A stretch of 64,000 nucleotides of DNA. It comes from Mesorhizobium sp. L2C084A000 (GTDB lineage Bacteria > Pseudomonadota > Alphaproteobacteria > Rhizobiales > Rhizobiaceae). The notes beneath the pieces are model-generated. The model was not told the DNA's origin. It searched no databases and saw nothing but the letters and a program-made list of their open reading frames with translations. The position numbers and the translations under genes were made by a program. Shown here one piece after another: positions 9,155 to 62,138 of this stretch (within the stretch, counting starts at the first letter, position 1; each line of letters opens with the position of its first letter). Location: the NCBI RefSeq assembly GCF_000502875.1, contig NZ_AYWX01000011.1, positions 90,695 to 154,694 of the forward strand, read 5' to 3'.

Positions 9155-9220
9155 CGCGGTCTCCTCTGTTTCCCATTCAAGTCGATGGGTGAACATTTCG
9201 CTCGTCGTGAGCCGGAATGC

Positions 9221-9252
9221 GATTGCACCAACGTATTGGCGATACCTTTGTA
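9221..9252 (-). promoter_or_regulatory. Shared promoter element before the epoxide hydrolase operon
   Basis: Minus-strand copy: ACAAAGGTATCGCCAATACG then TTGGTGCAATC. One of the best-kept copies: left arm GGTATCG, right arm near CGATACC, full tail. It ends 67 bp before the start codon at 9154. Confidence 0.7.
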
Positions 9253-9284
9253 TTGCCTGCGTCTGGCGGCCCGAGTCCCGTGGC

Positions 9285-9310
9285 AAAACCAACACCAAGG
9301 CATAATGGAC
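9285..9310 (+). promoter_or_regulatory. Shared promoter element (variant) before the second kinase
   Basis: Plus-strand AACCAACACCAAGG then CATAATGGAC. It resembles the right half and tail of the shared element and is close to the copy before the first kinase (CACCATGG, CCTATGGACG). It ends 56 bp before the kinase ATG at 9366. Together with 9221-9252 it makes a back-to-back pair between divergent genes. Confidence 0.42.
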
Positions 9311-18390: not shown

Positions 18391-18461
18391 TCTTCGGCAG
18401 CCCTGCTGCCAGACGATCCTTGGACCACATCACAACCACTTCGATCCAGATGGAGGACGTC

Positions 18462-28962: not shown

Positions 28963-31257
28963 TCAGGATGAAGCTAGTGATACTCGAACCGGAACGCCTT
29001 TGTAGGATGGCGTGCCTGACAATCGATCGTAGTGATTGAGCGACATGACCACGTTCATCTCCGGATAGTAGCCCGCCATCGAACCTCTGGGAATGTCATA
29101 GGCGACAACCGTGAATCCGCGCACGAGATGCTTGTCGTCTGCCCCTTCGGTCATCCCCTGGACGTCGACACGATCTCCGTCTTTCAGTCCTCGGCCGGCG
29201 AGATCCTCGCCATTCATGAAGACCACGTCGCGCCGCCCGAACACACCGCGATAACGATCGTCCAATCCATAGATGGTCGTGTTGTACTGGTCGTGGCTAC
29301 GGATCGTGGTCAGCATTAGTGAGTCATGACCGTCGGGTAGAGGATCTTCCCAAAGGCCTGGAGATGTCAGAAAATTTGCCTTGCCCCCAGGGGTGTCCCA
29401 CCGGCGAAACGACGCCGCGATGTCCAGCCTGAACCCGCCTGGCTTGCGCACGCGCTTGTTAAACTCACAGAAGTCGGGAAAGACCTCCTCGATCTTGTCG
29501 CGGATAACGTCATAGTCTGCGATCATGCCGTCCCAGTTGATGCCATGCCGATCGCCAAGCGTGGCTTTGGCGATCCCTGCGATGATTGCCGGCTCGGATC
29601 GGACGAGATCGCTCGGTGGGTACAGGAAGCCTCGCGACGCGTGAACCATGGACATCGAATCTTCGACGGTAACCAACTGTGGTCCCGATGACTGCATATC
29701 GAGGTCGGTGCGACCGAGGCACGGCAGCACGAGGGTAGTCTTCGCGGTTAGCAGATGGGAGCGGTTGAGCTTCGTTGCGATATGCACCGAAAGGTCGAGT
29801 TTGCGCATGCCTTGAAACGTGGCCTCTGGATCAGACATTGCGACAGCGAGATTGCCGCCGAGGCAGATCAGCGCCTTGGCGCGGCCATCGATAGCGGCTT
29901 CCACGGCGTCGACCGCGTTGTGGCCTTTCCCGCTTGGCGGTCGAAATCCAAACGCACGTTCCATGCCGTCGAGAAGTGTCTTGCTCGGAATCTCGGTTAT
30001 GCCGACTGTCCGGTCGCCCTGAACGTTCGAGTGACCCCGGATAGGCGCGATGCCTGCGCCCTCGCGGCCGATGTTTCCTCGCAGCATCAAAAAGTTTGCA
30101 ATCTGCTGGACGTTGTAGGTGCCCCGCGCATGCTGCGTGATCCCCATGCCGTAGCAGACGATGACCCTTTCTGCCTTCGCGTAGACGCCCGCAGTGCTCT
30201 CGATGGCCTGCTTCGTCAAGCCGCTGGCCTCGAAGATCTCGTTCCAACGGGTGGCTTCGACGTCGGCGCGAAGTGCATCAATACCGGAGGTATGCTCGCC
30301 GATAAACTGCCTGTCGAGGACTCCGCCGCGGCCTGCGGCAAGACTTGCTGCGTCGAGCTCGAAAACCGCCTTCATGAGTCCCTTTAGAGCGGCCATATCG
30401 CCGCCCACGCGGATCTGGTGATAGGCCGAGGCGATCGGCGTCGAGGACATCGTGACCATCTCGACGGGGTCTTGGGGCGCCGCGAACCGTTCGAGCGCGC
30501 GCTCCTTAAGGGGATTGAAGACTATGATTGGAACGCCGCGGCGCGCCGCCTGATGAAGAGTCGTCATCATTCGCGGGTGGTTGGTACCCGGATTGTGTCC
30601 GAAGCTGAAGATCGCGTCGGCGTGATTGAAGTCTTCGAGCGTCACTGTCCCCTTGCCGACGCCGATGGATTTTGGAAGGCCAACGCTGGTGGCTTCATGA
30701 CACATGTTGGAGCAGTCCGGGAGATTGTTGGTGCCGTAGGCGCGAACGAAAAGCTGATATAGAAACGCAGCTTCGTTGGAAGCCCGTCCAGACGTGTAGA
30801 ATTCCGCCTGATCTGGCGAGACGAGAGTATTCAGTTCGCTGCCGATCAACTTGAATGCCGCTTCCCAATCGATTGGTTCAAAGCGGTCGCTGGAGGCGTC
30901 GTAGCGTAGTGGGAGCGTGATACGCCCGGCATCTTCCAACTGGTGATCCTTCAAGGTCCAGAGTTTTGACACGGTGTGTTCCGCGAAGAAGCTCGCATCG
31001 GTCCTCTTCGCGGTGGACTCCCATGTGATCGCCTTGGCGCCGTTCTCGCAGAACTCGAACGACGAGGTGTGCTTGGGGTCTGGCCACGCGCATCCGGGAC
31101 AGTCGAATCCTTCCGGCTGGTTCGCCCTCAGCAAGGTTCTGCTGCCCTGCACGGCAATCTGCTGGCGGGCCAGCGTCTTGGCAACCGCCTTCAACGCATC
31201 CCAGCCACCTGCCGGATGGTCGTAGCGCAAAATACCCGGGGGGCGGGTCTTCTTCAT
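28963..31257 (-). CDS. Molybdopterin oxidoreductase, FdhF/YdeP family
   Basis: A 764-residue molybdopterin-dependent oxidoreductase. FDCPGCAWPDP holds only a CxxC near the N-terminus, without a full 4Fe-4S motif, as in YdeP-type proteins. The catalytic domain has EFYTSGRASNEAAFLYQLFV, SNMCHEATSVGLPKSIGVGK, FGHNPGTNHPRMM and GNIGREGAGIAPIRGHSNVQ. The C-terminal dinucleotide-binding part includes TTIRSHDQYNTTIYGLDDRY. No Tat signal, so cytoplasmic. Start follows AAGGA. The family is linked to formate dehydrogenase-like chemistry and acid resistance, but the substrate is not settled. A 10-bp hairpin lies in its leader. Confidence 0.9.
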   Translation of the reverse strand: MKKTRPPGILRYDHPAGGWDALKAVAKTLARQQIAVQGSRTLLRANQPEGFDCPGCAWPDPKHTSSFEFCENGAKAITWESTAKRTDASFFAEHTVSKLWTLKDHQLEDAGRITLPLRYDASSDRFEPIDWEAAFKLIGSELNTLVSPDQAEFYTSGRASNEAAFLYQLFVRAYGTNNLPDCSNMCHEATSVGLPKSIGVGKGTVTLEDFNHADAIFSFGHNPGTNHPRMMTTLHQAARRGVPIIVFNPLKERALERFAAPQDPVEMVTMSSTPIASAYHQIRVGGDMAALKGLMKAVFELDAASLAAGRGGVLDRQFIGEHTSGIDALRADVEATRWNEIFEASGLTKQAIESTAGVYAKAERVIVCYGMGITQHARGTYNVQQIANFLMLRGNIGREGAGIAPIRGHSNVQGDRTVGITEIPSKTLLDGMERAFGFRPPSGKGHNAVDAVEAAIDGRAKALICLGGNLAVAMSDPEATFQGMRKLDLSVHIATKLNRSHLLTAKTTLVLPCLGRTDLDMQSSGPQLVTVEDSMSMVHASRGFLYPPSDLVRSEPAIIAGIAKATLGDRHGINWDGMIADYDVIRDKIEEVFPDFCEFNKRVRKPGGFRLDIAASFRRWDTPGGKANFLTSPGLWEDPLPDGHDSLMLTTIRSHDQYNTTIYGLDDRYRGVFGRRDVVFMNGEDLAGRGLKDGDRVDVQGMTEGADDKHLVRGFTVVAYDIPRGSMAGYYPEMNVVMSLNHYDRLSGTPSYKGVPVRVSLASS

Positions 31258-31337
31258 TTTATTTTCCTTGAACGGTTTATTCGACCTAAAGCGGCGTCCG
31301 CTGCCATTGCATGTCACTGGGCGGGGCGTTTGAAAGA

Positions 31338-31365
31338 GGCCGTCTCCCGGCGGAAGGAGACGGCC
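31338..31365 (-). terminator. Strong leader hairpin upstream of the YdeP-family gene
   Basis: Perfect 10-bp stem GGCCGTCTCC / GGAGACGGCC with an 8-base loop, 81 bp before the start codon. On the gene strand it is followed by TCTTTC, only a weak U-tract. It lies between the shared element at 31497 and the gene, so it could attenuate transcription or end a leader transcript. Confidence 0.4.
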
Positions 31366-31496
31366 CCAAGGCGGATCTTGGCTAAATCCGCGCGCTCCGG
31401 CGGAGGGGAGGACGCAGGAGCGTTTCGCTGCTTGCAGCGGATCGCCTTGTCGAAGACGGAGGCGATGTCTAGACGCTATCCCTGACGCCGCCCCTG

Positions 31497-31524
31497 CATA
31501 AGTGCACTTTGGTATCGCCCGTCG
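31497..31524 (-). promoter_or_regulatory. Shared promoter element upstream of the YdeP-family gene
   Basis: Minus-strand ACGACGGGCGATACC then AAAGTGCACTTATG. The right arm CGATACC and GTGCA are kept. About 240 bp before the start codon, with the strong hairpin in between. The remaining intergenic DNA (31525-32029) shows nothing recognisable. Confidence 0.45.
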
Positions 31525-32029
31525 TGATTTTGCCTTGCTGTCGGAGGGCCCGCCGCTGGACGCTGCACCATGTTTGATGAACAAATGGATCTTGTAGCGG
31601 CCGTCGCGGTCTGCCTCTGCGACGTGCGTTCGCATTTAGCGGCGGTGCAGGGAACGACCGTGTTTGTAAAGCGAACGGAACCTGCGTCCGCCGGTCAGGG
31701 CTCAATGCGCCCAAAATTCCCCGCCTTGTCTTCGACGATGCGACTTGCAAGATCGCCGTTCTGCTTCAAAGCGTTTCGAGCCAGGGTCACTCCAAGGTGA
31801 GTCGAGCGGACGCCCTCAGGCGGGGATGCGCCGGCCTTCGTGATTTATCGAAACGTTTAGCGCCAGTGTTAAGTCGAGCAAACCGTCACCACGTCCTGCG
31901 TTTCCTTGAAGCGCAATGAAAACCACGCAATGCATTCAGTCAGATCGCACGAGATTTGATTGCAATAGGCGTGGGACGTGGTGACGTAGTCGAGCCCTGC
32001 GCGAGCCGAACCTGAATCAACAAATTCGC

Positions 32030-32587
32030 TTACCGCTCAGATCCCCAGACGGCTTCGTGAAGCTGCGTCGTGAAGCTGGTGTCGGTAGGAGCTCCAGGTA
32101 GACGCGCCGTCACCTCCTGCAAGGTCCATCCGTTGCCGTCGGGATCCTCGAACGTCAAATAAGAGGCATAGCTCTTCCTATCGGGATTCGGCCCCTTGGC
32201 AATTCCCTTGCCGTTAGAGTGATGGAAGATTCCGCCGACGTCGTGGAAAAGGTCGCTGACTTTTACGCCGCGTCGTACGAGGTCGTCGCGCGCGGCAAGG
32301 ATGTCGGGCACGACTAGATGCATGCCCTGGGCAGAGCCGGGCGCCGCCGTGGTGATGTTCTGGCCGAACATCACGGAGCCTCCTGAGCCGACTGGGGTTA
32401 ACTGGACAATGCGGTAATCGTCGCCCTTGCCGTGGTCGATGTCCAGCCGCCAGCCCAGGTTTTTGTAGAACGTTAAAGCACGATCCACGTCGGATACCGG
32501 GATTACAACGAGTTCAAGATTCATGCTGGGCGGACTGGTGTCTAATGTCTTAGCCGGTGGTTTCGCTTGCAGCGTCGGGTCGGTCAT
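32030..32587 (-). CDS. VOC/glyoxalase-fold protein
   Basis: 185 residues. MNLELVVIPVSDVDRALTFY, LGWRLDID, VQLTPVGSGGSVMFGQNITT and FEDPDGNGWTLQEVTARLPG show one glyoxalase/bleomycin-resistance module pair. It is a paralogue of the protein at 6244-6894 without the C-terminal tail. Start 32587 (MTDPTLQ) is decided by AGGAG. It stands alone, divergent from the SDR gene at 32896, with the shared element 73 bp upstream. Confidence 0.88.
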   Translation of the reverse strand: MTDPTLQAKPPAKTLDTSPPSMNLELVVIPVSDVDRALTFYKNLGWRLDIDHGKGDDYRIVQLTPVGSGGSVMFGQNITTAAPGSAQGMHLVVPDILAARDDLVRRGVKVSDLFHDVGGIFHHSNGKGIAKGPNPDRKSYASYLTFEDPDGNGWTLQEVTARLPGAPTDTSFTTQLHEAVWGSER

Positions 32588-32659
32588 GTCGGCTCCTATT
32601 GTTAGCCCGCCGCAGGGTCTTTTCGCGGTGACGTCAGGTAAACAAGGTGGATTCTGACC

Positions 32660-32694
32660 GGTATTGTCCGAAGGTGTGCCCGACACTTTGGTAT
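32660..32694 (-). promoter_or_regulatory. Shared promoter element before the VOC gene
   Basis: Minus-strand ACCAAAGTGTCGGGCACACC then TTCGGACAATACC. It keeps the arms as GTGTCG/CACACC and the CAAT tail. It ends 73 bp before the start codon at 32587. Confidence 0.6.
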
Positions 32695-32723
32695 TGGCTG
32701 CGGCCCACTCGTTACGCCTGAAT

Positions 32724-32754
32724 CGCGAAGCGCCGATAAACTACGCGCAATAGA
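32724..32754 (+). promoter_or_regulatory. Shared promoter element before the SDR gene (divergent pair)
   Basis: Plus-strand CGCGAAGCGCCGATAAAC then TACGCGCAATAGAC. Comparable with the copy at 38031 (CGCCGATACCAACGTGCAATAG). It ends 142 bp before the SDR ATG at 32896 and lies back-to-back with the minus-strand copy at 32660. Confidence 0.45.
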
Positions 32755-32895
32755 CATTCTGCCGAAAAGCGGTGAAGTGAATGCCGCTGCTCAGCAATTC
32801 TCCCGATGATTGTGAGCCCTTAAATCAATCGCACCAACGCCGAGGGCGCCGGGCGGCTCGAGCAAGGGCCGCAGCAATTGAAAAGGATATATATT

Positions 32896-33606
32896 ATGAG
32901 CAATCAGCAGAAGGTCGCTATAATCACTGGTGCATCACAGGGCATCGGCGAAGGTCTTGTCCGCGCCTATCGCCAGCGGAACTACCGCGTGGTCGCCACC
33001 TCGCGTTCGATCAAGCCGGGTTCCGATGACGGCGTGCATGCCGTAGCGGGCGACATTTCCAATCCAGAGACCGCCGAGCGCGTCGTCCGCGAGGCGATCC
33101 AACGCTTCGGTCGGATCGACACGTTGGTCAACAACGCAGGCGTCTTCACTGCAAAGCCTTTCGTCGACTTTACGCAGGAAGACTACGACCTGAACTTCGG
33201 CGTGAACGTTTCGGGCTTCTTCCATATCACGCAGCGGGCTGCGAGGGAGATGCTCAAGCAGGGTTCCGGCCACATCGTCAGCATCACGACGAGCCTTGTG
33301 AACCAGCCGGTGTCGAGCGTTCCCACGGCTCTCGCTTCGCTCACAAAGGGCGGATTGAACGCTGTGACGAAGGAACTGGCGATCGAATTCGCCAAGACTG
33401 GGGTCCGGGTGAACGCCGTATCTCCCGGCATCATCAAGACTCCGATGCACGCGCCTGAAACTCACGAGTTCCTATCCGCTCTCCACCCGGTCGGCCACAT
33501 GGGCGAGATCAGCGACATCGTCGACGCCGTGATTTACCTCGAGAACGCAAATTTCGTCACGGGAGAGATCCTACACGTCGACGGTGGCCAGAACGCTGGC
33601 CGCTAG
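32896..33606 (+). CDS. SDR-family oxidoreductase with a degenerate active site
   Basis: 236 residues. It has a good nucleotide-binding motif (VAIITGASQGIGEGLVRAYR), NNAGVFT, and a C-terminal ENANFVTGEILHVDGGQNAG. At the active site, SSVPTALASLTKGGLNAVTK keeps the Lys but has Ala where the catalytic Tyr is expected (YxxxK becomes AxxxK). Either another residue substitutes or the protein has lost normal activity. Start follows AAGGA. First of a plus-strand set with the broken DsbA-like gene and the tautomerase. Confidence 0.88.
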   Translation: MSNQQKVAIITGASQGIGEGLVRAYRQRNYRVVATSRSIKPGSDDGVHAVAGDISNPETAERVVREAIQRFGRIDTLVNNAGVFTAKPFVDFTQEDYDLNFGVNVSGFFHITQRAAREMLKQGSGHIVSITTSLVNQPVSSVPTALASLTKGGLNAVTKELAIEFAKTGVRVNAVSPGIIKTPMHAPETHEFLSALHPVGHMGEISDIVDAVIYLENANFVTGEILHVDGGQNAGR

Positions 33607-33677
33607 TAGGTTCACCAGGAAGCGGGTCACGTGGCGTGGTTACGCCGCGGGCCCTGCCGACAAACTAAAGGAAAAAA

Positions 33678-34297
33678 ATGGAACTCGTGCTGGCCGCCGA
33701 TCCGATGTGCTCTTGGTGTTATGGATTTGCCAAGCAAATGGAACTTCGGATGCATCGGCGTCGGGACGTCTCATTGACGATCATCCTCGGTGGACTGCGC
33801 GCCGGAGCGACCGAGACGCGGGCAAGCAGTTCAGACTGCACCATTGGCGAAGGTGGAGGAGGCCAGCGAGGTGCCGTTCAACCGTGAAGGCCTGCTTGCA
33901 AGGACTGGGTTCGTCTACGACACCGAGCCTGTATGCCGCGCGGTCGTTACCGCCCGGATCCTTCGCCCGCAGGCGGATCTTCTCAAGGTTTTCCGTGCAT
34001 TCCAGCACGCGTTTTACGTCGATGCGCTTAACACCACGAACGGCTTCGTACTGGCGGAGGTGGGATCCCGCGCTTTCAAGGACTTAGTCACCCGTCAACC
34101 CCGATGAATTCCTCGAGGCCTACAGGAAGCGGAGTACCATCGAAGAGGTCGCGACAGACTTCGCGACGGCTCGTGCCATAGGCGTTTCTAGCTTTCCCAC
34201 GCTGTTCCTCAAGAAGGGTGGAACTCTGCGAAGGGTCGGCGCTGGCTATGCGCATGTCGATGAACTGGAGAAGCATCTTGCGGCAATGGCCGCCTAG
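33678..34297 (+). pseudogene. DsbA/FrnE-type thioredoxin-fold gene, multiply frameshifted
   Basis: The start is intact (MELVLAADPMCSWCYGFAKQ, with the CxxC active site MCSWCYGF). The protein then continues in other frames: VEEASEVPFNREGLLARTGF, VYDTEPVCRAVVTARILRPQ, FRAFQHAFYVDALNTTNG, and finally NPDEFLEAYRKRSTIEEVAT with IGVSSFPTLFLKKGGT to a stop at 34295. At least three frameshifts lie between about 33740 and 34100. It would have been about 205 residues. Sits between the SDR and the tautomerase in one transcription unit. Confidence 0.78.
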
Positions 34298-34342
34298 AAA
34301 CCTAGAAAAACGATTCGAAATCTTGAACGAGGATATTACGAA

Positions 34343-34579
34343 ATGCCCATAGTCACTGTACAGGTAACGCGTGAGGGCTCGGCTCCTGATCGCAACTCGG
34401 TCACGGCCGAAGAAAAGGCCGCCATCATCGCGGGCGTCAGCCAAGTCATGCTCGACGTCCTCAATAAGCCGCTCGAATCAACCTACGTGGTCATCGAAGA
34501 GTTCGAGCTCGACAACTGGGGCTGGGGAGGTCTTCCAACCGTCCAGTATCGGAAGACTAAGGCCGAAGGGAAAGCCTGA
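34343..34579 (+). CDS. Tautomerase (4-oxalocrotonate tautomerase-like)
   Basis: 78 residues. After Met removal the protein begins with Pro (PIVTVQVTREG), the catalytic N-terminal base of the family. The core EEKAAIIAGVSQVMLDVLNK then PLESTYVVIEE and the C-terminal DNWGWGG are typical of small tautomerases acting on enol/keto acids. GAGGA lies 9 bp upstream. Third gene after the SDR; probably acts on the same pathway intermediate. Confidence 0.88.
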   Translation: MPIVTVQVTREGSAPDRNSVTAEEKAAIIAGVSQVMLDVLNKPLESTYVVIEEFELDNWGWGGLPTVQYRKTKAEGKA

Positions 34580-34937
34580 CATCGAGTTGATCTCGTGAAG
34601 CTAACATGACGCCGCCGGCGGCCCGGCGGCATTTGGTTCCGCCGCGCGGAGCGCCAAAGGATGCGAAGCTCTTGCGTTCGAGTAGTTCTTCAACAGAACG
34701 CTCCGGGCATCGGGCATACCATCGTGCAGTAGCGTTCGCTTCTGTCTGTAGGATCCTGCTGCAGATGGAGCGTTTCGGCAAAGGCGGAGACCAGTTCCTG
34801 GCAGCGAGATCGGGAATGATTGCTGACTGGCCGTGTGGATTGGGGTCCCGTTCTCGAAATTTGAAGCCCATGAAAGTCTGAGCGACATTGTTGCGGCTCA
34901 AGACCATCTGCTTCGGACCACGCTGTTGCTCAACCGA
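34580..34937. other. Intergenic region, no gene recognised
   Basis: Short GC-rich reading frames without a credible start or family resemblance. Lies between the tautomerase stop and the promoter element of the PfpI gene. Confidence 0.35.
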
Positions 34938-34969
34938 TACCAAGGTGCTGGCGATACCAATGTGCAGAT
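34938..34969 (+). promoter_or_regulatory. Shared promoter element before the DJ-1/PfpI gene
   Basis: Plus-strand ACCAAGGTGCTGGCGATACC then AATGTGCAGATG. Both arms recognisable (GGTGCTG / CGATACC). It ends 78 bp before the ATG at 35047. Confidence 0.6.
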
Positions 34970-35046
34970 GCAAAGCAGGATGATCCCAGACAACATTCCA
35001 TTCGTACGGCCACCCGCTGTGAAACAGAAATGGAAGGAACTTACAC

Positions 35047-35748
35047 ATGAAGATTCTCATGGTATTCACCTCGCATGACATACTTGGAAACACCGGGCGA
35101 AAGACGGGCTTCTGGCTCGAGGAGGGCGCTGCACCCTACTATGTCTTCCGCGATGCGGGATTCGATCTGACGCTCGCGTCACCCAAGGGTGGGCAACCCC
35201 CGGTCGATCCGAAGAGCGATCTGCCAGAGAACCAGACGCCTGCCATGACGAGGTTCAAGCAGGACGAGGCCGCGCAAAAAGTGTTCGCCACCACGAAGAA
35301 ATTGAGCGAAGTCCGTTCCGATGATTTCGACGCCATCTTCTATCCAGGCGGCCATGGTCCAATGTGGGACCTCGTGGACAATCCCGACTCCATCAAGCTC
35401 ATCGAGTCCTTCTACAATGCCGGCAAGCCAGTGGCTGCCGTCTGCCACGCGCCCGCTGTCCTGCATCGCGTGACCTATCAAGGTGCTCCGATCGTCAAGG
35501 GGAAGCGGGTGACGGGCTTCACCAACGGTGAAGAAGAAGAAGTGCAACTGACGAAGGTCGTGCCGTTCCTCGTCGAAGACGAACTCAAGCGGCTCGGCGG
35601 TCTCTATGAAAAAAAGGGGAACTGGGAAATTTTCGCAATTACCGACGGCAGGTTGATTACCGGACAGAACCCGGCATCTTCCACCGCAGGAGCGCAGGCG
35701 CTCGTAAAGCTTCTGAACAGCGCGGCGGCCAGTGCTACCGCCGCATAG
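35047..35748 (+). CDS. DJ-1/PfpI-family protein (Hsp31-like)
   Basis: 233 residues. The nucleophile elbow is in KPVAAVCHAPAVLHRVTYQG (Cys followed by His), with the partner acid in DAIFYPGGHGPMWDL. The N-terminal MKILMVFTSHDILGNTGRKT and GFWLEE match the Hsp31/type-1 glutamine-amidotransferase-like group, members of which act as glutathione-independent glyoxalases or deglycases of carbonyl damage. AAGGA precedes the start. Single gene with its own shared element; consistent with a reactive-carbonyl detoxification role. Confidence 0.9.
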   Translation: MKILMVFTSHDILGNTGRKTGFWLEEGAAPYYVFRDAGFDLTLASPKGGQPPVDPKSDLPENQTPAMTRFKQDEAAQKVFATTKKLSEVRSDDFDAIFYPGGHGPMWDLVDNPDSIKLIESFYNAGKPVAAVCHAPAVLHRVTYQGAPIVKGKRVTGFTNGEEEEVQLTKVVPFLVEDELKRLGGLYEKKGNWEIFAITDGRLITGQNPASSTAGAQALVKLLNSAAASATAA

Positions 35749-36070
35749 CCCTAACCGTGAGGCGAAAAGAGAGAGGTCGCGGGACCAGTGTCGCGCGGCC
35801 TTGCGACTTAGTGGTGGAAAAAATTGGCGCGCTCCAGGAGGCGATTCTGGCAAGGACCTTAGCCGGCGATATATTTGCACGGAGGACGTCGGCGGACTTC
35901 CTCTATGCCGCGAGTTACCTATGCCGCAAGTCACCGTTCCAGTAGTGGTGCAGGTTTTTTTGTGCGTGGCTCCTCGAGAGACTCACAAATCTCTCGGCAG
36001 TACCAACCGCTCAAAGCCGAAGTCCTGCGATGAATGGAGACGAAAGAGAGCCAGCGGCGTCGCAAGGAAA
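35749..36070. other. Intergenic region, nothing recognised
   Basis: Between the PfpI-family gene and the convergent HbpS-like relic. No promoter element, hairpin or protein family was seen. Confidence 0.4.
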
Positions 36071-42334: not shown

Positions 42335-43999
42335 ATGGAGCCGCCACCGATCGGCCAAGACTATTCACGCAACAACTCTCAGATTTTGTGGGAGGACGGG
42401 GAGCGCATATTCCGTCGCGGCCTGCGATCGACCGACAGTGGTGAACACCGTGCTATCCTCATGGTGGAGCTTGCCGCGAGGCGCCCATCACGCGCAAGCG
42501 TCGACCGCCTCATCCATGAATACGAGCTTCGGGATAAGCTCGACGAGGTATGGGCGGCGCGACCTCTGGATTTCGTACGCGAAGGTGGTCGAACCACACT
42601 GATACTCGACGATGAGAGGGGCGAGCCACTCGACCGGTTGTTAACGGGGCCTATGGAAGTAGGTCACTTTCTGCGCTTGGCCATCGGAATTGCAGAGGCT
42701 GTTGAGAGGCTGCACCGCAGCGGGTTGATCCACAAAGACATCAAACCCGCCCATATCCTGGTTAACGCTGCGACTGATCAAGTGCGGCTGACGGGTTTCG
42801 GTATCGCATCGCCGTTACCGCGGGAGCGCCAGCCAGTCCACCCTGCTGACATGATCGCCGGTACGTTCGCCTATATGTCGCCAGAACAGACCGGGCGAAT
42901 GAACCGGTCGATCGACTCCCGCAGTGACCTCTACGCTCTCGGCATTACCTTCTATCAAATGCTCGCCGGAACTTTGCCGTTCACGGCCGAAGACCCAATG
43001 GAATGGGTACACTGCCACCTCGCTAGGTGGCCCGTCGCGCCTGCTGAACGGTTGGGCGATATCCCCGACATCGTTTCGGCCTTAGTAATGAAGTTGCTCG
43101 CGAAGACGGCTGAAGACCGCTACCAAACCGCGTCCGGCCTTGTGAGCGACCTTCGCCGCTGCGCGCACGATTGGAGGGCGCAGCGCCGGATTGACGACTT
43201 TTCGCTTGGCAAACATGATACGCCGGATCGCCTTTTGATTCCGGAAAAACTGTACGGTCGGCAGAGAGACATCGGGACTTTGCTTGCCGCGTTCGACCGG
43301 GCTGTGAAAGGTGGCGCGCCCGAATTGGTGCTGGTTTCCGGCTATTCCGGCATCGGCAAATCCTCGCTTATCAACGAGCTTCAGCCGGTACTCGTTCCTC
43401 CGCGGGGGCTTTTTGCCGCTGGCAAGTTTGATCAGCACAAACTCGACGTTCCCTACTCAACGCTTGCACAAGCCTTCGAAAGCCTGATCCGGCCGCTACT
43501 CGGCAAAAGCGAGGTCGAACTTGCTCCCTGGCGCGATGCCTTCCGCGAAGCATTGGGCCAAAACGCAGCACTAATTGTCGACCTCGTTCCCGAAATAAAG
43601 CTCATTATCGGAGTGCAGCCTCCGGCGGTTGAGCTGCCGCCTCAGGACACGCAACGGCGTTTCCATCTGGTGCTTCGGCAGTTCATTGGCGTATTTGCGC
43701 GGCCTGAGCATCCCCTGGCCCTCTTCTTCGATGATTTGCAGTGGCTCGACGCCGCAACTCTCGACTTCCTTGAGGATCTGTTATGCCGGTCCAACCTGCA
43801 CAATCTCCTTCTCATCGGTGCGTACCGCGACAATGAAGTCACGGCGGCTCACCCCCTCATGCGCCGCCCGCTCGACTTCGCAATGGAACGAGGCAGCAAC
43901 AAGTTCCCCCAGATCCGGTACGGCCAGCGGGTTGAGCTTAATTTCCTCAATCCTGCCGAGGGGACGCATCATGTCCAACTTGCGGCCTTCGTCGGCTAA
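42335..43999 (+). CDS. Ser/Thr-kinase/AAA ATPase part of a disrupted giant signalling protein
   Basis: N-terminal part of a protein that would continue at 44070-48239. Residues 1-285 form a protein-kinase-like domain (LHRSGLIHKDIKPAHILVNA with catalytic Asp about 135; LTGFGIAS in place of DFG; GTFAYMSPEQTGRMNRSIDS). The ATP-anchoring Lys of the second strand seems replaced (HRAILMVELAARR), so activity is doubtful. From about 305 comes an AAA/STAND ATPase: Walker A VSGYSGIGKSSLINEL, Walker B LALFFDDLQWLDAATLDFLE. After HPLM at 43861 the frame enters inverted sequence and soon stops. Upstream GGAG at 8 bp. Confidence 0.85.
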   Translation: MEPPPIGQDYSRNNSQILWEDGERIFRRGLRSTDSGEHRAILMVELAARRPSRASVDRLIHEYELRDKLDEVWAARPLDFVREGGRTTLILDDERGEPLDRLLTGPMEVGHFLRLAIGIAEAVERLHRSGLIHKDIKPAHILVNAATDQVRLTGFGIASPLPRERQPVHPADMIAGTFAYMSPEQTGRMNRSIDSRSDLYALGITFYQMLAGTLPFTAEDPMEWVHCHLARWPVAPAERLGDIPDIVSALVMKLLAKTAEDRYQTASGLVSDLRRCAHDWRAQRRIDDFSLGKHDTPDRLLIPEKLYGRQRDIGTLLAAFDRAVKGGAPELVLVSGYSGIGKSSLINELQPVLVPPRGLFAAGKFDQHKLDVPYSTLAQAFESLIRPLLGKSEVELAPWRDAFREALGQNAALIVDLVPEIKLIIGVQPPAVELPPQDTQRRFHLVLRQFIGVFARPEHPLALFFDDLQWLDAATLDFLEDLLCRSNLHNLLLIGAYRDNEVTAAHPLMRRPLDFAMERGSNKFPQIRYGQRVELNFLNPAEGTHHVQLAAFVG

Positions 44000-44069
44000 T
44001 ACGTGCAGGAACTGGACCGCAAAGAAAGGATTGCCGTTCGTCTTGGCATGAACCAGCTGGGCCAGGGAG
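43862..44069. other. Two adjacent in-place inversions inside the kinase/ATPase gene
   Basis: The minus strand of 43984-43862 reads RKLDMMRPLGRIEEIKLNPL then AVPDLGELVAASFHCEVERA A. The minus strand of 44069-43985 reads SLAQLVHAKTNGNPFFAVQF then LHVLADEG. In relatives these two blocks follow HPLM in this order and precede DVLLTFDHEQRQW, which resumes on the plus strand at 44070. Each block is therefore inverted where it stands. Restoring both gives the full domain, apart from a single-base offset between the blocks. Confidence 0.8.
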
Positions 44070-44156
44070 GACGTCCTCCTAACCTTCGATCACGAGCAGA
44101 GGCAGTGGACCTGGGACCTTACTAGTATCAGCGCAAAGCAATATACCGACAATGTC

Positions 44157-47100
44157 GTGGAGTTTCTCGCCCCGAAGCTGGCGCGATTACCGCCCGACAC
44201 GCAGGACGCGTTACGGCAGCTCGCCTGCCTCGGTAACTTTGCCGAAGTGGCGACGCTCTCGATGATTCTGGAGATGCCCGAGGAACAGATGCATGGCGTC
44301 CTCTGGGGGGCGCTGCGCGATCAGCTGATCTACCGCCTTGATCGCAGTTACAGGTTCGCTCACGACCGCGTGCAGGAAGCCGCTTATGCGATGATCCCGA
44401 GAAGGTCGCGAGCCAGCGCACATTTGAAAATCGGTCGACTGCTCGCATCCGGTATCCCACCGGAAGAGAGAGGCGAGGTGATCTTCAACATAGTCAACCA
44501 GTTTGATCGAGCCGCGAGACTGATCACCACCGAGCCGGAACGCGAACAAGTCGCTGAACTAAACCTGATTGCGGGGAAAAGGGCAAAAGCGGCAGGCGCC
44601 TCAATGGCGGCGCTGAGATATCTCTCGGCCGGCCGTTCTCTGCTTGGGAAAGCAGCATGGGCACGGAACGGCAGGCTCGTCTTCGAAATGGAGCTCCAAT
44701 TGGGCGAGTGCCAGTATCTGGTTGGGCGACTGGCGGAAGCGGAACGGCGCCTCTCAGCGCTGTCGAAGCGCGCTCAAAACCCGGTCGATGCCGGCGCTGT
44801 CGTCTCTCTGCGCGTCAACCTCTACATGGTAATGGATCGAAGCGACGATGCCGTCGCCTTGGGTCACGCCTATCTGCGTCGGCATCAACCTCGATGGCGG
44901 CTGAACCCGACAGCAGAAGATGTCAGGAAGGAATGCGGTCGATTGTGGCGGCAGATCGAGACCTTATCCATCGAGTCGCTGCTTGATCTGCCAGCGATGA
45001 GCGATCCGAACCAGCAGGCAACGATGAACGTACTAACGGCGGTGATTGGAGCAGCGCAGTTCACCGACGTGAATCTTTTTCACCTCATCATCATCCATAT
45101 GGCTGCTCTCAGCCTTGAATACGGAAACACCGAAGGCTCGTGTCTTGCGTACGCAGTCTTAGGCAGCGTGCCAAGTCCGTATCCGGACCAAGCTCAGGCT
45201 GGATACCGGGTGGGTAAAATTGCCTTGGAATTAGTCGAGAAGCGCGGATTCCATCGCAGCAGGGGTATCACCCACTATGGATTTACACTTTTCATCGCGC
45301 ATTGGATACAGCCCCTGGCCACCTGTCAGGAACTGTTCCAACGCGCCTTCGAGTCCGCTCGGGCTGTCGGCGATCTGACCATTGCGTCCTTCGCTCGGGT
45401 CGACCTGGTTACAAATCTTTTGGCAACGGGACACCCACTTGAGGAGGTCGAGGACGAGGCCAACAGCGCTCTCGCTTTTGTGCAAAGCGTGGGCTTCGGG
45501 CAGATCGGCGACGTCATCGTAGCGCAAATCAGGTTGATCCGGGCGCTCCGAGGACAAACAAATGATCTGAATTCGTTCGAGGATGATGAATTCCGCGAAA
45601 GATCTTTCGAGCAGCGTCTTGAAGGCGATGCTCGCCTGGCTATCGCCGCGTCGCGATATTGGATTCGAAAACTGCAGGCCAAGGTCCACGCCGACGACTA
45701 TGTTGGTGCGGTGGAGGCCGCATCGAAATCGGAGTCGCTTCTTTGGACGCTACCGTCCCAGCAAGAGCTGCCTGAATACCACTTCTATACAGCGCTCGCC
45801 TGGGCTGGACATTGCGAAGCCGCTATTCCCGAGGGCCGGCATCATGCTCTGCAGGAATTGCGCTCTCATCACGACCGGATCGCTCATTGGGCCGAGAGCG
45901 GGCCCGAGAATTTCGCCAATCGCGCAGCACTCCTCGGCGCTGAACTGGCCAGGCTTGAAGGACGAGAAAATGATGCAATGCAGCTTTACGAACGGGCAAT
46001 TCGCCTGGCTCGCGAGCAAGGCTTCTTACATAATGAAGGGCTGGCTAACGAGTTGTCCGCGCGATTCTGGGCTGCCCGCGGCTTCGAGACGATTGCGAAC
46101 GCGTATTTTCGAAATGCCCGCGACTGCTATCTCCGCTGGGGAGCCGATGGAAAGGTGAGGCAACTCGATCGGTTGCTTCCTGGGCTCAGGCCTGAGCACC
46201 CGATCGCCGGTCCGACCTCCACGATCACGACGCCGGTCGAGCATCTCGATCTCGCGACGATCATCCGAGTCTCGCAAGCGCTATCGGGCGAGATGGTACT
46301 GGAAACGCTAATCGACAGGCTCATGCGATCGGCTATCGAGCACGCAGGCGCCGAGCGGGGGCTTCTGATTTCTCCCGAGAGTGGAGAATTGCGGATAGAC
46401 GCAGAAGCGACCGCGCGTGGCGAGGTCGTCGTCGTGCGAGTACCAGAACAGCGGGCGCCCAGCACGGCCCAGATGCCAGAGACGCTAATTCGCTACGCAA
46501 TACGAACGGGAGAGACCGTGATCCTCGGCGATGCAGCGGCCCGAAACCCATTTTCTGGCGATGTTCACATCGTTCAAGGCCATGTTCATTCCGTCCTCTG
46601 TCTCCCGTTGGTCAACCAGGGTAAGCTGATCGCCGTTCTCTATCTTGAAAACAATTTGATCCGAGATGTGTTCACGCCGGAACGAGTCACCGTCCTGAAG
46701 ATGCTTGCGTCGCAAGCTGCAATTTTGCTCGAGAATACGCGCCTTTATCGCGATCTGGCGGATCGAGAGGGAAAGATCCGGCGCCTCGTTGACGCCAACA
46801 TCCTGGGCATCTGCATTTGGAGTGACGAGGACACCATCGTTGAAGCCAACGAAGCTTTTCTGCGTATCCTTCATTACGAGCGTAAGGATGTCGTGTCCGG
46901 CCGGTTGCGTTGGAAGGACCTGACCCCAGCGGAGTGGCGCGAACGGGATGAACGTGCCATGGCAGAGCTCCGAGCAAACGGTACCTTTCAAGCATTCGAG
47001 AAAGAGTTTTTTCGTAAGGATGGTGGTCGAACGCCTGTGTTGCTTGGCGGCACTCGATTTGAAGAAGGGCGTAACGGAGGCGTCGCCTTCGTACTCGATC

Positions 47101-48239
47101 TGACGGAACGCAAGCGCGCCGAAGAGGCACTCCGAGAAAGTGAACGAAACTTACGGTCTGCAATTGATGGGATACCCGGCCTCGTTGCGATCTTGGCTCC
47201 CAACGGTGAAGTCGAAGCCGTGAATCGCCAAATCGTCTACTATTGTGGCCGGCATTTGGATGAACTGAGGAGCTCGGGCCTAGGCGGAATTGTACATCAT
47301 GACGACCTGTCGCGCCTTCTAGAGATTTTCACCAAGTCTATCGCCTCGGGCGTTCCCTATTCGATCGAGGCGCGCTTGCGACGATTCGATGGCGAATTCA
47401 GGTGGTTCGACATCCGCGGCATTCCAGTCCGCGACGCATCGGAGCGCATTACCCGCTGGTACGTTTTGCTGACCGATGTCGAGGATCGCACGCAAGCGTT
47501 GGTCCGATTGCAGCAGATGCAGTCGGATTTCGCTCACATCAATCGCGTGAGCACGATGGGAGAGCTGGCTGCTTCGCTATCTCACGAAATCCTGCATCCC
47601 ATTGCCACGGCGCGTAACAACGCGCGCGCGGGAATGCGTTTTCTGGAGATGGATCCGCCAAATCTGGATGAAGCCAGGGAGGCGATCGGCTGTGTCGTCA
47701 GAGACGCCGATCGGGCTCGGGACATTGTCGGCCGTGTACGCGATCACATCAAAAAAGCGCCTCCGCGTAAGGAACCCTTCGATCTCAACGAGGCGGTCCG
47801 CGAGGCTCTTGCCATGGTACACAGCGCATTTGCGAAAAATAAAATCGCGGTCACTGCTCGATTGCCGGAAGAACAGGTTCCTGTTCAAGGGGATCGCGTT
47901 CAGCTGCAACAAGTAATTGTAAACTTGGTTCTCAACGCGGTGGACGCGATGGGTTCGGGTAACGAACGAGTAAATGAGCTAACGATCAGAATTGAACAAG
48001 GCGAAGCCGACGGAGTGGTGCTCGTCAAAGTCGCGGACACAGGGCCAGGCATTAGTCCGCAAAATCTTGAGCGTATGTTCGAACCCTTCTACACCACCAA
48101 GGACAGCGGAGTAGGGATGGGACTGTCGATCTGCCAATCCATTATCAAAAGCCATGGTGGCCAGCTATGGGCGGAGCCGAACAAGCCTTTCGGCGCCCTA
48201 TTTCAGTTTACGCTGCCACCTCCGCGGGACGACTCATGA
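44157..48239 (+). CDS. Sensor histidine kinase part of the disrupted giant signalling protein
   Basis: Coding sequence of the same protein resumes at 44070 (DVLLTFDHEQRQW); the first possible start in frame is 44157. About 1360 residues: helical repeat region of the STAND/ATPase module (to about 680), GAF domain (about 700-860: LIDRLMRSAIEHAGAERGLL, VLCLPLVNQGKLIAVLYLEN), two PAS domains (about 870-995 and 1000-1115), HisKA (about 1125-1190, ASLSHEILHPIATARNNARA) and HATPase_c (about 1240-1355, VNLVLNAVDAMG, DTGPGI, GVGMGLSICQ). Without repair it could only be made by internal initiation, and no good SD is visible at 44157. Its stop overlaps the convergent receiver gene's stop. Confidence 0.85.
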   Translation: MEFLAPKLARLPPDTQDALRQLACLGNFAEVATLSMILEMPEEQMHGVLWGALRDQLIYRLDRSYRFAHDRVQEAAYAMIPRRSRASAHLKIGRLLASGIPPEERGEVIFNIVNQFDRAARLITTEPEREQVAELNLIAGKRAKAAGASMAALRYLSAGRSLLGKAAWARNGRLVFEMELQLGECQYLVGRLAEAERRLSALSKRAQNPVDAGAVVSLRVNLYMVMDRSDDAVALGHAYLRRHQPRWRLNPTAEDVRKECGRLWRQIETLSIESLLDLPAMSDPNQQATMNVLTAVIGAAQFTDVNLFHLIIIHMAALSLEYGNTEGSCLAYAVLGSVPSPYPDQAQAGYRVGKIALELVEKRGFHRSRGITHYGFTLFIAHWIQPLATCQELFQRAFESARAVGDLTIASFARVDLVTNLLATGHPLEEVEDEANSALAFVQSVGFGQIGDVIVAQIRLIRALRGQTNDLNSFEDDEFRERSFEQRLEGDARLAIAASRYWIRKLQAKVHADDYVGAVEAASKSESLLWTLPSQQELPEYHFYTALAWAGHCEAAIPEGRHHALQELRSHHDRIAHWAESGPENFANRAALLGAELARLEGRENDAMQLYERAIRLAREQGFLHNEGLANELSARFWAARGFETIANAYFRNARDCYLRWGADGKVRQLDRLLPGLRPEHPIAGPTSTITTPVEHLDLATIIRVSQALSGEMVLETLIDRLMRSAIEHAGAERGLLISPESGELRIDAEATARGEVVVVRVPEQRAPSTAQMPETLIRYAIRTGETVILGDAAARNPFSGDVHIVQGHVHSVLCLPLVNQGKLIAVLYLENNLIRDVFTPERVTVLKMLASQAAILLENTRLYRDLADREGKIRRLVDANILGICIWSDEDTIVEANEAFLRILHYERKDVVSGRLRWKDLTPAEWRERDERAMAELRANGTFQAFEKEFFRKDGGRTPVLLGGTRFEEGRNGGVAFVLDLTERKRAEEALRESERNLRSAIDGIPGLVAILAPNGEVEAVNRQIVYYCGRHLDELRSSGLGGIVHHDDLSRLLEIFTKSIASGVPYSIEARLRRFDGEFRWFDIRGIPVRDASERITRWYVLLTDVEDRTQALVRLQQMQSDFAHINRVSTMGELAASLSHEILHPIATARNNARAGMRFLEMDPPNLDEAREAIGCVVRDADRARDIVGRVRDHIKKAPPRKEPFDLNEAVREALAMVHSAFAKNKIAVTARLPEEQVPVQGDRVQLQQVIVNLVLNAVDAMGSGNERVNELTIRIEQGEADGVVLVKVADTGPGISPQNLERMFEPFYTTKDSGVGMGLSICQSIIKSHGGQLWAEPNKPFGALFQFTLPPPRDDS

Positions 48240-53089: not shown

Positions 53090-53392
53090 CTACTTTAAGA
53101 CGCCCTGGATGAAGAGCAGGTCCTCATCCCGCGGAAAATCACATATCCCTATGGCGCTCGCCGCATCCTGGATCAGCGCGGCCACCTCATGGGGGTGGGA
53201 GACCATTACTAGGTGCGAAGCGTCCGGGACGACCACGACCTCCCGAGCATGGGCGCGGGTGGCCATGAAAGCCATAGCAGGGGGCGGAATGTTGCGGTCT
53301 GCGGCGCCGTAAATTGACCAGGACGGGATCGTTTTCCACGCCGCCCGAACCGTTCGGTCGGACAGGGCGGCTCGATTCACAGGACGCTGGGC
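53090..53392 (-). pseudogene. Alpha/beta hydrolase C-terminal remnant
   Basis: RPVNRAALSDRTVRAAWKTI, PSWSIYGAADRNIPPPAMAF and VVVVPDASHLVMVSHPHEVA match the C-terminal third of small alpha/beta hydrolases, including the catalytic acid strand (YGAADRNIP) and the His (ASHLVMVSHP). The N-terminal two thirds with the nucleophile are missing; upstream DNA is unrelated. A truncated gene. Confidence 0.65.
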
Positions 53393-53501
53393 GGCGCCAA
53401 TCAGCCGCGCGTCGGCATCGTCTTGACCGCGGCGAAGCTGACGGCCTTTATTATCGCTCCGCTTTTTCGTTGCGGCGGTCAAGCCGACAGCATGCCTGCG
53501 C

Positions 53502-53660
53502 GCTGGGATCGTCACCCTTCTGCTGGCATCTGCCGCAATGACATTGTCGGTGGATCTCACCTGGATCAGCGTCTGCCGTATGGTCCAGGGGCTGGCCGGC
53601 GGCACAATCCTCGTCGCCGGTCAGACACTGCTGCTCTTTCGTTTCCGGAGTCGAAGCCAC
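53502..53660 (+). pseudogene. MFS transporter fragment
   Basis: About 50 residues, IVTLLLASAAMTLSVDLTWI then SVCRMVQGLAGGTILVAGQT LLLFRF. They resemble the third and fourth transmembrane segments and the R-x-x-QG-x-x-GG motif of drug:proton antiporters of the EmrB/DHA2 type. Neither end continues in frame. Overlaps the hydrolase remnant's neighbourhood in a stretch of debris (53393-53960) with nothing else recognisable. Confidence 0.45.
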
Positions 53661-56088: not shown

Positions 56089-57855
56089 ATGAGTGAGACC
56101 CGCAAAATAGCAGCGATCCTGGTCTCGGATGTAGTCGGCTACAGTCGGCTAGCCGGCGCGGATGAAGACCGCATCTTGGCACGGCTGCGCGCGCTGCGTA
56201 GCGACCTCATCGACCCCACCATCTCCATTCATCGTGGTCGCGTCGTCAAGCGCACTGGCGACGGGAGCCTCATCGAGTTCAGCAGCGTTGTAGAAGCAGT
56301 GCGCTGCGCGATCGAAGTGCAGAATGCCATGGTTGAGCGCAATGCCGGGGTGCCGGATGACCGCCGCATCGAGTTCCGGATCGGCATTCACCTGGGCGAC
56401 GTCGTGCAAGAACGCGATGGCGACCTTATGGGCGATGGGGTCAATATCGCCGCGCGCCTGGAAGGAATCTGCGAACCTGGCAATATCTGTCTTTCCGAAC
56501 AAGCCTATTGGCAGGTTAAGTCAAGGCTCGATATCGCGATCAACGATCGCGGTGAGGTGCAACTCAAGAACATTGCCTATCCGATCCGGGTTTATTCGCT
56601 GCAGGTCGGCGTCCCAACTAAGGCAAAGCCTGCGGCACCAACTGCGCCTCTTGTTCTAGAGAAGCTTTCGCAGCCGCTCGCACCGCCCGACAAGCCTTCA
56701 ATTGCTGTGCTGCCCTTCATCAACATGAGTGGCGATTCCGAACAGGAATTTTTCACCGACGGGCTGACGGAGGACATCATCACCGATCTGTCGAATGTGT
56801 CCGGCTTCTTCGTGATCGCCCGCAACTCCACCTTTGCCTATAAAGGCAAGCCCACCGACGTCCGTCAGATCGCTCGCGATCTGGGCGTCAAATATGTTCT
56901 CGAGGGCAGCGCCCGCCGATCCAACCACCGGTTGCGCGTCAATGTTCAGCTTATCAATGCGGCAGAAGGCGGCGATCACGTGTGGGCCGAGCGCTTCGAC
57001 CGCGAAATCGCCGACATATTCGACGTTCAGGACGAAGTCACGCGACGCGTTGTTGAAGCGATTTCTGGCAAGCTTGGTGAAAAGAAACTTGTTGCCCGTT
57101 CCCGACCGTCAAATCTCGAAGCCTATGATCTTTGTGTTAGGTCGCGAGGCAAGTGCAACAATTCCAGTTCAGACAATCGTGAGGCGTGTGCTGACCTGGA
57201 GCGTGCCGTTCAGATCGATCCAAACTACTGCGAGGGGCACAGCAATCTTGCCATCTCACTGCTATTTGGCTGGATTATCTGGGGTGAGCCACAGGAACCC
57301 AGCCGCGCAAAGGCTCTGATGCACGCGAAACGGGCCGTGAAAATCGATCCCGACGATTCCCACGCTCGCAGAATCCTAGGCTGCGTTCAGCTTTATGAGC
57401 GCAACTGGGATGAAGCAAAATCCCAATTCGATGCTGCCGTTCAGCTTAATCCCAACAATGCAGATGCGGTTGCGTGGATGGGTGAGCTGCAAATCTACTT
57501 AGGCGATCCGCAAGCGGCGCTGATAGCTTGTGGCGCAGCGCTCCGTATAAATCCTCGTCCACCCGGTTGGTATTTCTGGATCATGGGCATGGCGCAGATT
57601 TCCGCCGGTCACTACGAAGAAGCAGTTGCGTCCTTGAGCCGAGAGGAAACGTACGGGACGGGTTCGAGGGAGCACCTGGTTCCCGCGCTTGCCCTTGCCG
57701 GTCGCGTTCCTGAGGCACAGCAGGAAGCCCGCCTATTTCTGGCGGGCAATCCAAATTGGAAGGTCGGTGATTTGGTGGCGAACTCACCCTTCAAGAGCCC
57801 GAGTGATGCGCAGCCGTTAGTTGATGGCTGGCGTCTGGTGGGGTTGCGGGAATAG
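56089..57855 (+). CDS. Class III adenylate/guanylate cyclase with TolB-like and TPR domains
   Basis: 588 residues. Cyclase catalytic domain (about 1-170): metal Asp in AAILVSDVVGYSRLAG and second Asp in VKRTGDGSLIEF; FRIGIHLGDVV and GDGVNIAARLEGICEPG complete it. A TolB-like N-terminal domain follows (about 200-330: SIAVLPFINMSGDSEQEFFT, DGLTEDIITDLSNVSGFFVI), then TPR repeats (about 360-560: AVQIDPNYCEGHSNLAISLL, AVKIDPDDSHARRILG). A common rhizobial architecture thought to make cAMP; no membrane helix is seen. GGAGG start. Convergent with the EF-hand gene. Confidence 0.92.
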   Translation: MSETRKIAAILVSDVVGYSRLAGADEDRILARLRALRSDLIDPTISIHRGRVVKRTGDGSLIEFSSVVEAVRCAIEVQNAMVERNAGVPDDRRIEFRIGIHLGDVVQERDGDLMGDGVNIAARLEGICEPGNICLSEQAYWQVKSRLDIAINDRGEVQLKNIAYPIRVYSLQVGVPTKAKPAAPTAPLVLEKLSQPLAPPDKPSIAVLPFINMSGDSEQEFFTDGLTEDIITDLSNVSGFFVIARNSTFAYKGKPTDVRQIARDLGVKYVLEGSARRSNHRLRVNVQLINAAEGGDHVWAERFDREIADIFDVQDEVTRRVVEAISGKLGEKKLVARSRPSNLEAYDLCVRSRGKCNNSSSDNREACADLERAVQIDPNYCEGHSNLAISLLFGWIIWGEPQEPSRAKALMHAKRAVKIDPDDSHARRILGCVQLYERNWDEAKSQFDAAVQLNPNNADAVAWMGELQIYLGDPQAALIACGAALRINPRPPGWYFWIMGMAQISAGHYEEAVASLSREETYGTGSREHLVPALALAGRVPEAQQEARLFLAGNPNWKVGDLVANSPFKSPSDAQPLVDGWRLVGLRE

Positions 57856-57887
57856 CGCGTTGGCAGCAAGACTGGAAAGGGGTGCTG

Positions 57888-57910
57888 GTTAGGGCCGCCG
57901 GGCGCCTAAC
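57888..57910. terminator. Hairpin between convergent cyclase and EF-hand genes
   Basis: Stem GTTAGG / CCTAAC around a GC-rich loop (GCCGCCGGGCG) in the 82-bp gap between the two convergent stops. No T-run; may serve both directions. Confidence 0.4.
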
Positions 57911-57937
57911 AGCCAAGAGACGTCCCCTTCGCGCGAC

Positions 57938-58544
57938 CTACGGCGTGTCTTCGCTATTAGTGCCATTTATGCTGGAGCCACGGATGAAGGACTGGATTTC
58001 GTCCAGATCGATCTTGCCATCACCATTCTCGTCGACGCTGCTGAATATCCTGCCAACCGCGCGATGAACCTCGTCCTCGGACAGCGATCCGTCGCCATCC
58101 GTGTCCAACAGCCCGAACGTCAGCCGCATGCCGGCGCCGCATCATTTGATGGTCCCGGTGTCCAGCCATTCTATGTCCTCGGCCCCAGTCACCATGATTC
58201 CGCCTGCGGTCGCCATGACGGCTAGCTTCGTCGTGGCGGCCAGCATCCTCGTTGCGATCGCCTTGGTAGGCTCGGCTATCTTCCTCTCGGAAACGTTCTT
58301 CAGAATCGCGATCCTGCTGCATCCTATCCCGAACCGCTTGCTCAACCATCTGGCGGATCATTTCGCGTATTTTTCCATCCGCTTGTCCGGTCACATCCGG
58401 CAACTGCCCGGCGCCCGGCGGTTCGGTCGCCGGAGCGGGTGCAGGTGTCGAGGGTGCTGGTGTTCCGCTCGTCTGGGCGAGAGCCGGGGAGGCCAAGGCT
58501 ATGAAAGCGGCGGCCGCGGCCGTCGTGCTGTGTGGAAATCTCAT
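57938..58544 (-). pseudogene. Exported EF-hand calcium-binding protein, frameshifted
   Basis: Signal peptide MRFPHSTTAAAAAFIALASP ALAQ, a Pro/Ala/Thr-rich linker, then a charged His/Arg/Asp-rich stretch. After a one-base shift near 58135-58145 come two EF-hands (DTDGDGSLSEDEV and DENGDGKIDLDEI), each with canonical calcium ligands. Together about 200 residues, a periplasmic calcium-binding protein. Start 58544 follows GGAGC. The shift lies in a GC-rich run and may be a sequencing error. Confidence 0.72.
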
Positions 58545-58954
58545 GGCATGCTCCATCGGTCGTGTCTGCTTGGACGGCCAAACTGGAACTCGATCTGATT
58601 GTTCCCCGAAGGGCATCAGGTCACGGCGAATTTAACGGGGCATGTCCCCGTCCGGGCCTCGATCACGGCCTTCGCCAGGAAATACAACCCTCCTTGCTGA
58701 GGCACAGAAGGGAAGCCCGCCTATTTCTTGCGGGCCTGAGCGCTGCCATTCCGCTTCCCGCCCAAAATTGCCGGACAGCTTTGCACCTATCTTGGTCATC
58801 GCGTCATCCCAGCCGCCCACCAAAAGCGGCCCCATGAGCATATCTCCATAATGATCTCAGCATCGGCTTTTTCCTGCCTGACCACCGATCAAGTGTTTTG
58901 TGAACAGCATCGTGCTAATATTGCCGTCACTGCGCTCGGCGAGGAAATCGCAGC
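58545..58954. other. Intergenic region upstream of the second cyclase
   Basis: A minus-strand frame (58841-58632, starting MLMGPLLVGGWDDAMTKIGA) has no recognised family and no good SD. No clear precursor-peptide gene for the YcaO/TfuA pair downstream was seen here. Confidence 0.35.
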
Positions 58955-62116: not shown

Positions 62117-62138
62117 CCGCCCTGCAAGAGCAACCGCG

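Follow-up and report, generated by a model that had tools for sequence, protein, structure and literature searches.

How can two adjacent pieces of a gene come to lie reversed, each at its own place and without a change in their order? The question is raised by a 5.9-kb gene at 42335-48239 of the window, by which we mean the whole 64,000-nucleotide stretch of Mesorhizobium sp. L2C084A000 DNA that was analyzed. The window is part of a 313-kb contig (C11) in a 6.65-Mb draft assembly of 77 contigs. The gene encodes a fusion of a Ser/Thr kinase, an ATPase, and a histidine kinase, and the copy found here is broken. An earlier note on this DNA had read the break as two separate in-place flips and had named template switching, a reversible switch, or an assembly artefact as possible causes. 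Here, two in-place micro-inversions that disrupt a single regulatory gene are confirmed at the level of the assembled sequence. Its best explanation, to which we give a probability of about one in two, is a one-off accident of breakage and rejoining by end joining that left a recent null allele.

Structure of the broken gene

The Pfam domain order of the broken fusion is Pkinase, AAA_16, GAF, PAS, HisKA, and HATPase_c, and the gene is collinear with Ser/Thr kinase-ATPase-sensor histidine kinase fusions in its relatives in Bradyrhizobium and Paraburkholderia. The 5' part (42335-43861, plus strand), with matches to Pkinase (1.4e-25) and AAA_16 (2e-41), is intact up to the residues HPLM and collinear with the five relatives that were compared as whole proteins. 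It is followed by block A (43862-43984, 123 bp), which is reverse-complemented in place and encodes, on the minus strand, the 41 codons that come next, as seen with four of the five relatives. Block B (43985-44068, 84 bp) abuts block A, is likewise reverse-complemented in place, and carries the following 28 codons on the minus strand, including the GNPFF motif. Seven extra bases (44069-44075), absent from the relatives compared, stand between block B and the 3' part (44076-48239, plus strand). The latter starts at the residues LLTF, comprises the rest of the ATPase/helical region and the GAF, PAS, HisKA, and HATPase_c domains, stays open to its stop codon, and is collinear with the relatives. 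Among the NCBIfam matches listed (25 of 82 for the 3' part), no model of the whole fusion scored over its cut-off, and the match of the 5' part to the TOMM kinase/cyclase model was partial and far below the cut-off.

Neither block contains a stop codon on the minus strand, and their 69 codons together are the residues that relatives carry between HPLM and LLTF, which bears out the claim that the blocks encode the missing residues on the opposite strand. The extent given earlier for block A was correct; block B had been put at 85 bp and is one base shorter, its supposed last base being the first of the seven extra ones. The gene is also disrupted, as had been stated. On the plus strand, the frame of the 5' part (ORF 42335-43999) ends at a premature stop codon inside block B (43997-43999), and the downstream 3' part is open in a different frame.

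Orientation of the blocks in related loci

When the whole proteins of the five relatives were searched against the window, four of them gave main pieces on the plus, minus (block A), minus (block B), and plus strands, in that order. With the fifth (L041), block B was flipped and block A had no separate match. Besides the main pieces, this search returned a few weak or repeat-domain matches. Had the whole segment been inverted at once, the two blocks would have changed places, a point of the earlier note that we accept; three breakpoints and two flips are thus needed.

A comparison with orthologous genes, which the earlier note had proposed, was made at 93 related loci, namely 112 places less 5 that were the gene itself or duplicates and 14 without the preceding stretch. 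Some genomes contributed two loci, and block matches were accepted up to E = 1 at the expected place. The best nearby match to block A was on the gene strand at 77 of the 93 loci and was not found at the other 16; for block B, the counts were 92 and 1. Neither block was flipped at any of these loci, which, together with the order of the pieces, bears out two separate in-place flips. When 146 genomes from the genus, the own one included, were searched at the DNA level, the B stretch lay on the strand opposite to a neighboring flank in three genomes, opposite to the upstream flank in G021 and G133 and to the downstream flank in G014.

Tiling and junctions

The spacing of conserved motifs was compared with that in 29 chosen relatives. 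The distance between M and the GNP[FL]F motif is 52 codons, which the 3 nearest relatives share; the remaining 26 have 53. From GNP[FL]F to YTDN there are 39 codons once the seven bases are removed, as in all 29 relatives. As far as codon counts can tell, nothing appears to have been lost or duplicated apart from the seven extra bases.

The left join has 3 bases in common with the alternative source, the middle join has 1 base, and the right join has the 7-base filler, which completes a perfect 14-base palindrome (44066-44079). A search of about 1 kb on either side gave no template of more than 7 bases for the filler. The inverted repeats flanking block A consist of a 3-base run (chance 0.06), with 4 of 12 matches within 6 bases of the ends (chance 0.37); those flanking block B consist of a 1-base run (chance 0.44), with 6 of 12 matches within the same distance (chance 0.07). 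A recombination site common to the three junctions was not found, and none of 15 inverted pairs in the sequence stood at both ends of either block. The longest words across the left and middle joins that recur in the 64-kb window measure 10 and 11 bases, respectively, and the 14-base word that recurs at the right join reflects the palindrome's match to itself.

Copy number, divergence, and age

Protein and DNA searches found no second copy in the own 6.65-Mb draft. Besides this locus, they returned one kinase match of 30% identity, obtained with the 5' part of the gene as query, and three short chance matches, and an intact second copy or alternative allele was therefore rejected. The same allele elsewhere was likewise rejected, as searches of same-genus DNA and of a plasmid collection gave no close relative carrying it. 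The best long same-genus DNA match to the gene was 75% identical, and the one match of the gene in the plasmid collection, from Paraburkholderia, was 72% identical over 17% of the query. Among the matches listed for a wider query of that collection, none improved on this over the gene. Neither a conspecific genome nor an independent assembly of the strain was found.

For the age of the break, the mean identity of the own copy to 12 chosen relatives was set against the range among those relatives. Block A was 46% identical on average (43-57% among the relatives), block B 69% (64-73%), and the unflipped upstream part 71% (63-77%). The unflipped downstream part, at 52%, lay slightly under the 53-63% seen among the relatives. 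The flipped blocks are without excess decay, which makes a recent break probable, unless the break is not real at all. We therefore infer a recent loss-of-function allele. The lower downstream identity may mean that the gene was loosening beforehand or that the break is older than this.

Break and rejoining as the most probable cause

In the reading we prefer, three breaks within about 207 bp would release or loosen two short pieces, and each of these would be ligated back at its original place, reversed, by end joining with Ku and LigD. Seven bases would be added at the right-hand join. The outcome would be a 5' frame that ends at 43999 and a 3' part without the gene's own start. A single event is probable because no base separates the two flips, and independent events would seldom end up so placed. 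The exact tiling also favors cutting and flipping because this retains every base automatically, and rejoining for that reason fits better than copying. End joining as the agent is consistent with the traits of the joins, 3- and 1-base homology at two of them and added bases at the third. The own genome carries genes for it, with 4 Ku and 2 LigD_N matches over the cut-off; on contigs C14 and C15, the two kinds lie near each other. The lack of excess divergence in the blocks and of another coding case in about 0.6 Mb compared with relatives also counts in favor of this reading. The reading takes the assembly to be correct, as it probably is.

By simple arithmetic, three breaks re-ligated at random have 8 outcomes, 1 of which is unchanged, and the observed arrangement is one of the 7 altered outcomes. 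The earlier note had called such a double flip unusual; the word is fair, but the case is less striking in view of these odds and of a megabase-scale tandem inversion described for an irradiated rhizobium (PMC11434629).

Several points weigh against breakage and rejoining. The event is known from one assembly, with no second isolate or close relative having the same allele, and three breaks in 207 bp with both fragments kept would be rare in themselves. Simple blunt joining leaves the 14-base palindrome unexplained, which a snap-back synthesis step would explain. In Rhizobium etli, nonhomologous end joining (NHEJ) can generate deletions or insertions according to a study whose title gives homologous recombination the prevalent role (PMC10932983), and the end-joining reading is tempered by this. 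More tentatively, rhizobia with several Ku/LigD sets might undergo very local shattering, with clustered breaks a few hundred base pairs apart at most, in which all fragments are kept and re-ligated in place in random orientation; we hold this wider proposal to be possible, with the odds against it. If it is true, the locus would be a fossil, at single-base resolution, of one local shattering event at gene scale.

Template switching

Second in rank, though rather unlikely, is copying at a fork that stalled or broke, by serial template switching or microhomology-mediated break-induced replication. In this course of events, the polymerase would jump to the opposite strand, copy A backwards, jump again, copy B backwards, and return. 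The short homology at the junctions (3 and 1 bases) would suit such jumps, and the palindromic filler resembles the product of snap-back copying. Both models are also discussed in a study of primate micro-inversions (PMC8755829). For 8 of these, the flanking inverted repeats are no longer than 3 nt; the authors can hardly picture two jumps inside repeats of 3-4 nt and favor microhomology-mediated break-induced replication (PMC8755829). At the kinase locus, the inverted repeats that would guide the polymerase are weak, with the runs of 3 bases for block A and 1 base for block B given above. Moreover, every jump would have to land exactly on an earlier edge for the blocks to tile without loss or duplication. 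Template switching, as put forward in the earlier note, is thus a possible cause, but one that the exact tiling fits less well than it fits breakage and rejoining.

Assembly artefact and scans for further cases

The gene may also be intact in the bacterium, with two short pieces mis-oriented in the draft through an assembly or library artefact, which we consider improbable though a serious candidate. The draft has 77 contigs and scattered single N bases, 57 of which were listed in 80 stretches (3 of them counted twice through overlaps), and no independent assembly of the strain was found with which to compare it. The SSU rRNA was not found in the draft, although this says little, as the same search was positive in just 9 of 14 control genomes. 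On the other hand, the left and middle joins are not bridged by any long repeat, their recurring words in the 64-kb window reaching 10 and 11 bases, and no N occurs in the window. Mis-turned unitigs would normally duplicate or lose overlap bases, yet the tiling is exact. Nor did a second coding case appear in about 0.6 Mb compared with relatives, in stretches chosen to match contig C1 rather than the gene's own contig, or in 1.66 Mb covered by a weaker scan of coding signal. The artefact that the earlier note had allowed for is therefore not positively supported by the joins or by any recurrence.

In the comparison with relatives, 601,700 own bases (overlaps counted twice) were aligned to stretches of two genomes, G009 and G029, chosen to match contig C1, and no further coding micro-inversion was found in them. 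The procedure recovered 34 of 35 implanted flips and made one extra call, in L135, that was absent from the native scan. Its sole native call, in L132, was rejected as two short G+C-rich palindromic repeats that match both strands. These paired intergenic repeats (L132:7304-7478, corresponding to G000:C1:216304-216478) match the relative on both strands and so mimic in-place flips. They are probably a rhizobial palindromic intergenic element.

The scan of coding signal covered 1,655,457 own bases (the window plus 80 stretches, 1-kb overlaps included) and was the only one to cover the gene's own contig, in chosen stretches. It was weak: of 127 implants of each kind, it recovered 53 double flips and 12 single ones, and its first settings missed the target, so that penalties were lowered until the target was found. 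Seven calls were made, the target locus and six others. Four of the six were rejected as pairs of different Pfam families, and the call in L180 as a pair of transport permeases that both have an N-terminal domain of their own by Pfam. A second pair in L185 was set aside solely on a stop codon 8 bases past the boundary. Two of the stretches have denser N bases than the others, with 6 per 20 kb in L113 (G000:C11:1-20000) and 7 per 20 kb in L192 (G000:C2:247001-267000); these clusters are perhaps collapsed repeats or ambiguity codes.

Reversible switch

A reversible intragenic switch of the inverton or shufflon kind, turning the kinase gene off and on, is very unlikely: two adjacent in-place flips do have the topology of a multi-segment shufflon, in which adjacent segments are flipped in place, but the junctions have no common inverted site (the block ends match over runs of 3 bases and 1 base), flipped A or B occurs at none of the 93 related loci, the assembly holds no alternative copy or other state, and no recombinase or invertase was seen among 30 ORFs of the window scanned with Pfam. 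Four of these 30 ORFs had no match at all, and the window lists 91 ORFs of at least 150 aa, many of them overlapping. As a cause, the switch proposed earlier is contradicted by these results.

Other features of the window

When positions 30000-54000 of the window were compared with the plasmid collection, 61 of 75 matching records were from Rhizobium, and the matches listed were chiefly to 30000-36000. A short ORF at 53090-53605 (minus strand) matches the end of an alpha/beta-hydrolase profile (129-216 of 217) and is possibly a gene remnant. In the region 56089-63293, a cyclase-TPR protein (56089-57855, plus strand) lies upstream of a 1053-aa AAA_16 ATPase protein (58955-62116, plus strand), which is followed directly by a YcaO-domain protein (62139-63293). 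Two genes with an epoxide-hydrolase N-terminal (EHN) domain stand on opposite strands about 10 kb apart (7853-9298, minus; 18420-19748, plus).

Comparison with known systems

For the bacterium itself, the break would be ordinary gene loss. For annotation, the locus is a warning, since the gene looks like two fragments and a gap although none of its codons is missing; they alternate between the strands. Provided that it is real, the locus offers a clean, base-resolved natural case of local rearrangement through several breaks in a bacterial gene. Among the matches listed in a full-text literature search, which covered titles and the openings of abstracts and few subscription papers, none reports two adjacent in-place micro-inversions in a gene of a bacterium.

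The locus resembles invertons and shufflons in its in-place flips and in that several adjacent segments may be flipped in such systems. It differs from them in that it has no repeated recombination sites, no recombinase among the ORFs scanned, and no second state seen. In the human-chimpanzee micro-inversions, too, a short segment is replaced in place by a precise copy of its reverse complement, sometimes between repeats of 3 nt. The primate segments measure less than 33 bp, have inverted repeats on their flanks in every case, and mostly come with no further changes, whereas the kinase locus has two adjacent blocks of 123 and 84 bp, weak or no repeats, and seven extra bases (PMC8755829).

A further parallel comes from a rhizobium. 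In the carbon-ion mutant M13 of Bradyrhizobium diazoefficiens USDA110, a "tandem inversion" of 1.47-Mb and 0.6-Mb regions has been reported, the abutment and order of which we take from the word "tandem" in the portion of the paper available (PMC11434629). The same portion ascribes the structural alterations of the USDA110 mutants to mis-rejoined broken ends and suggests NHEJ; three of the five alterations show 3-13 bp of microhomology, which is named there for the inversion of M14 and the deletions of M13, not for the tandem inversion (PMC11434629). The scale and origin differ, the regions of M13 being of megabase size in an irradiated strain and those of the kinase locus 123 and 84 bp (PMC11434629). 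In its type, the mutation found here is a small-scale variant of the reported tandem inversions.
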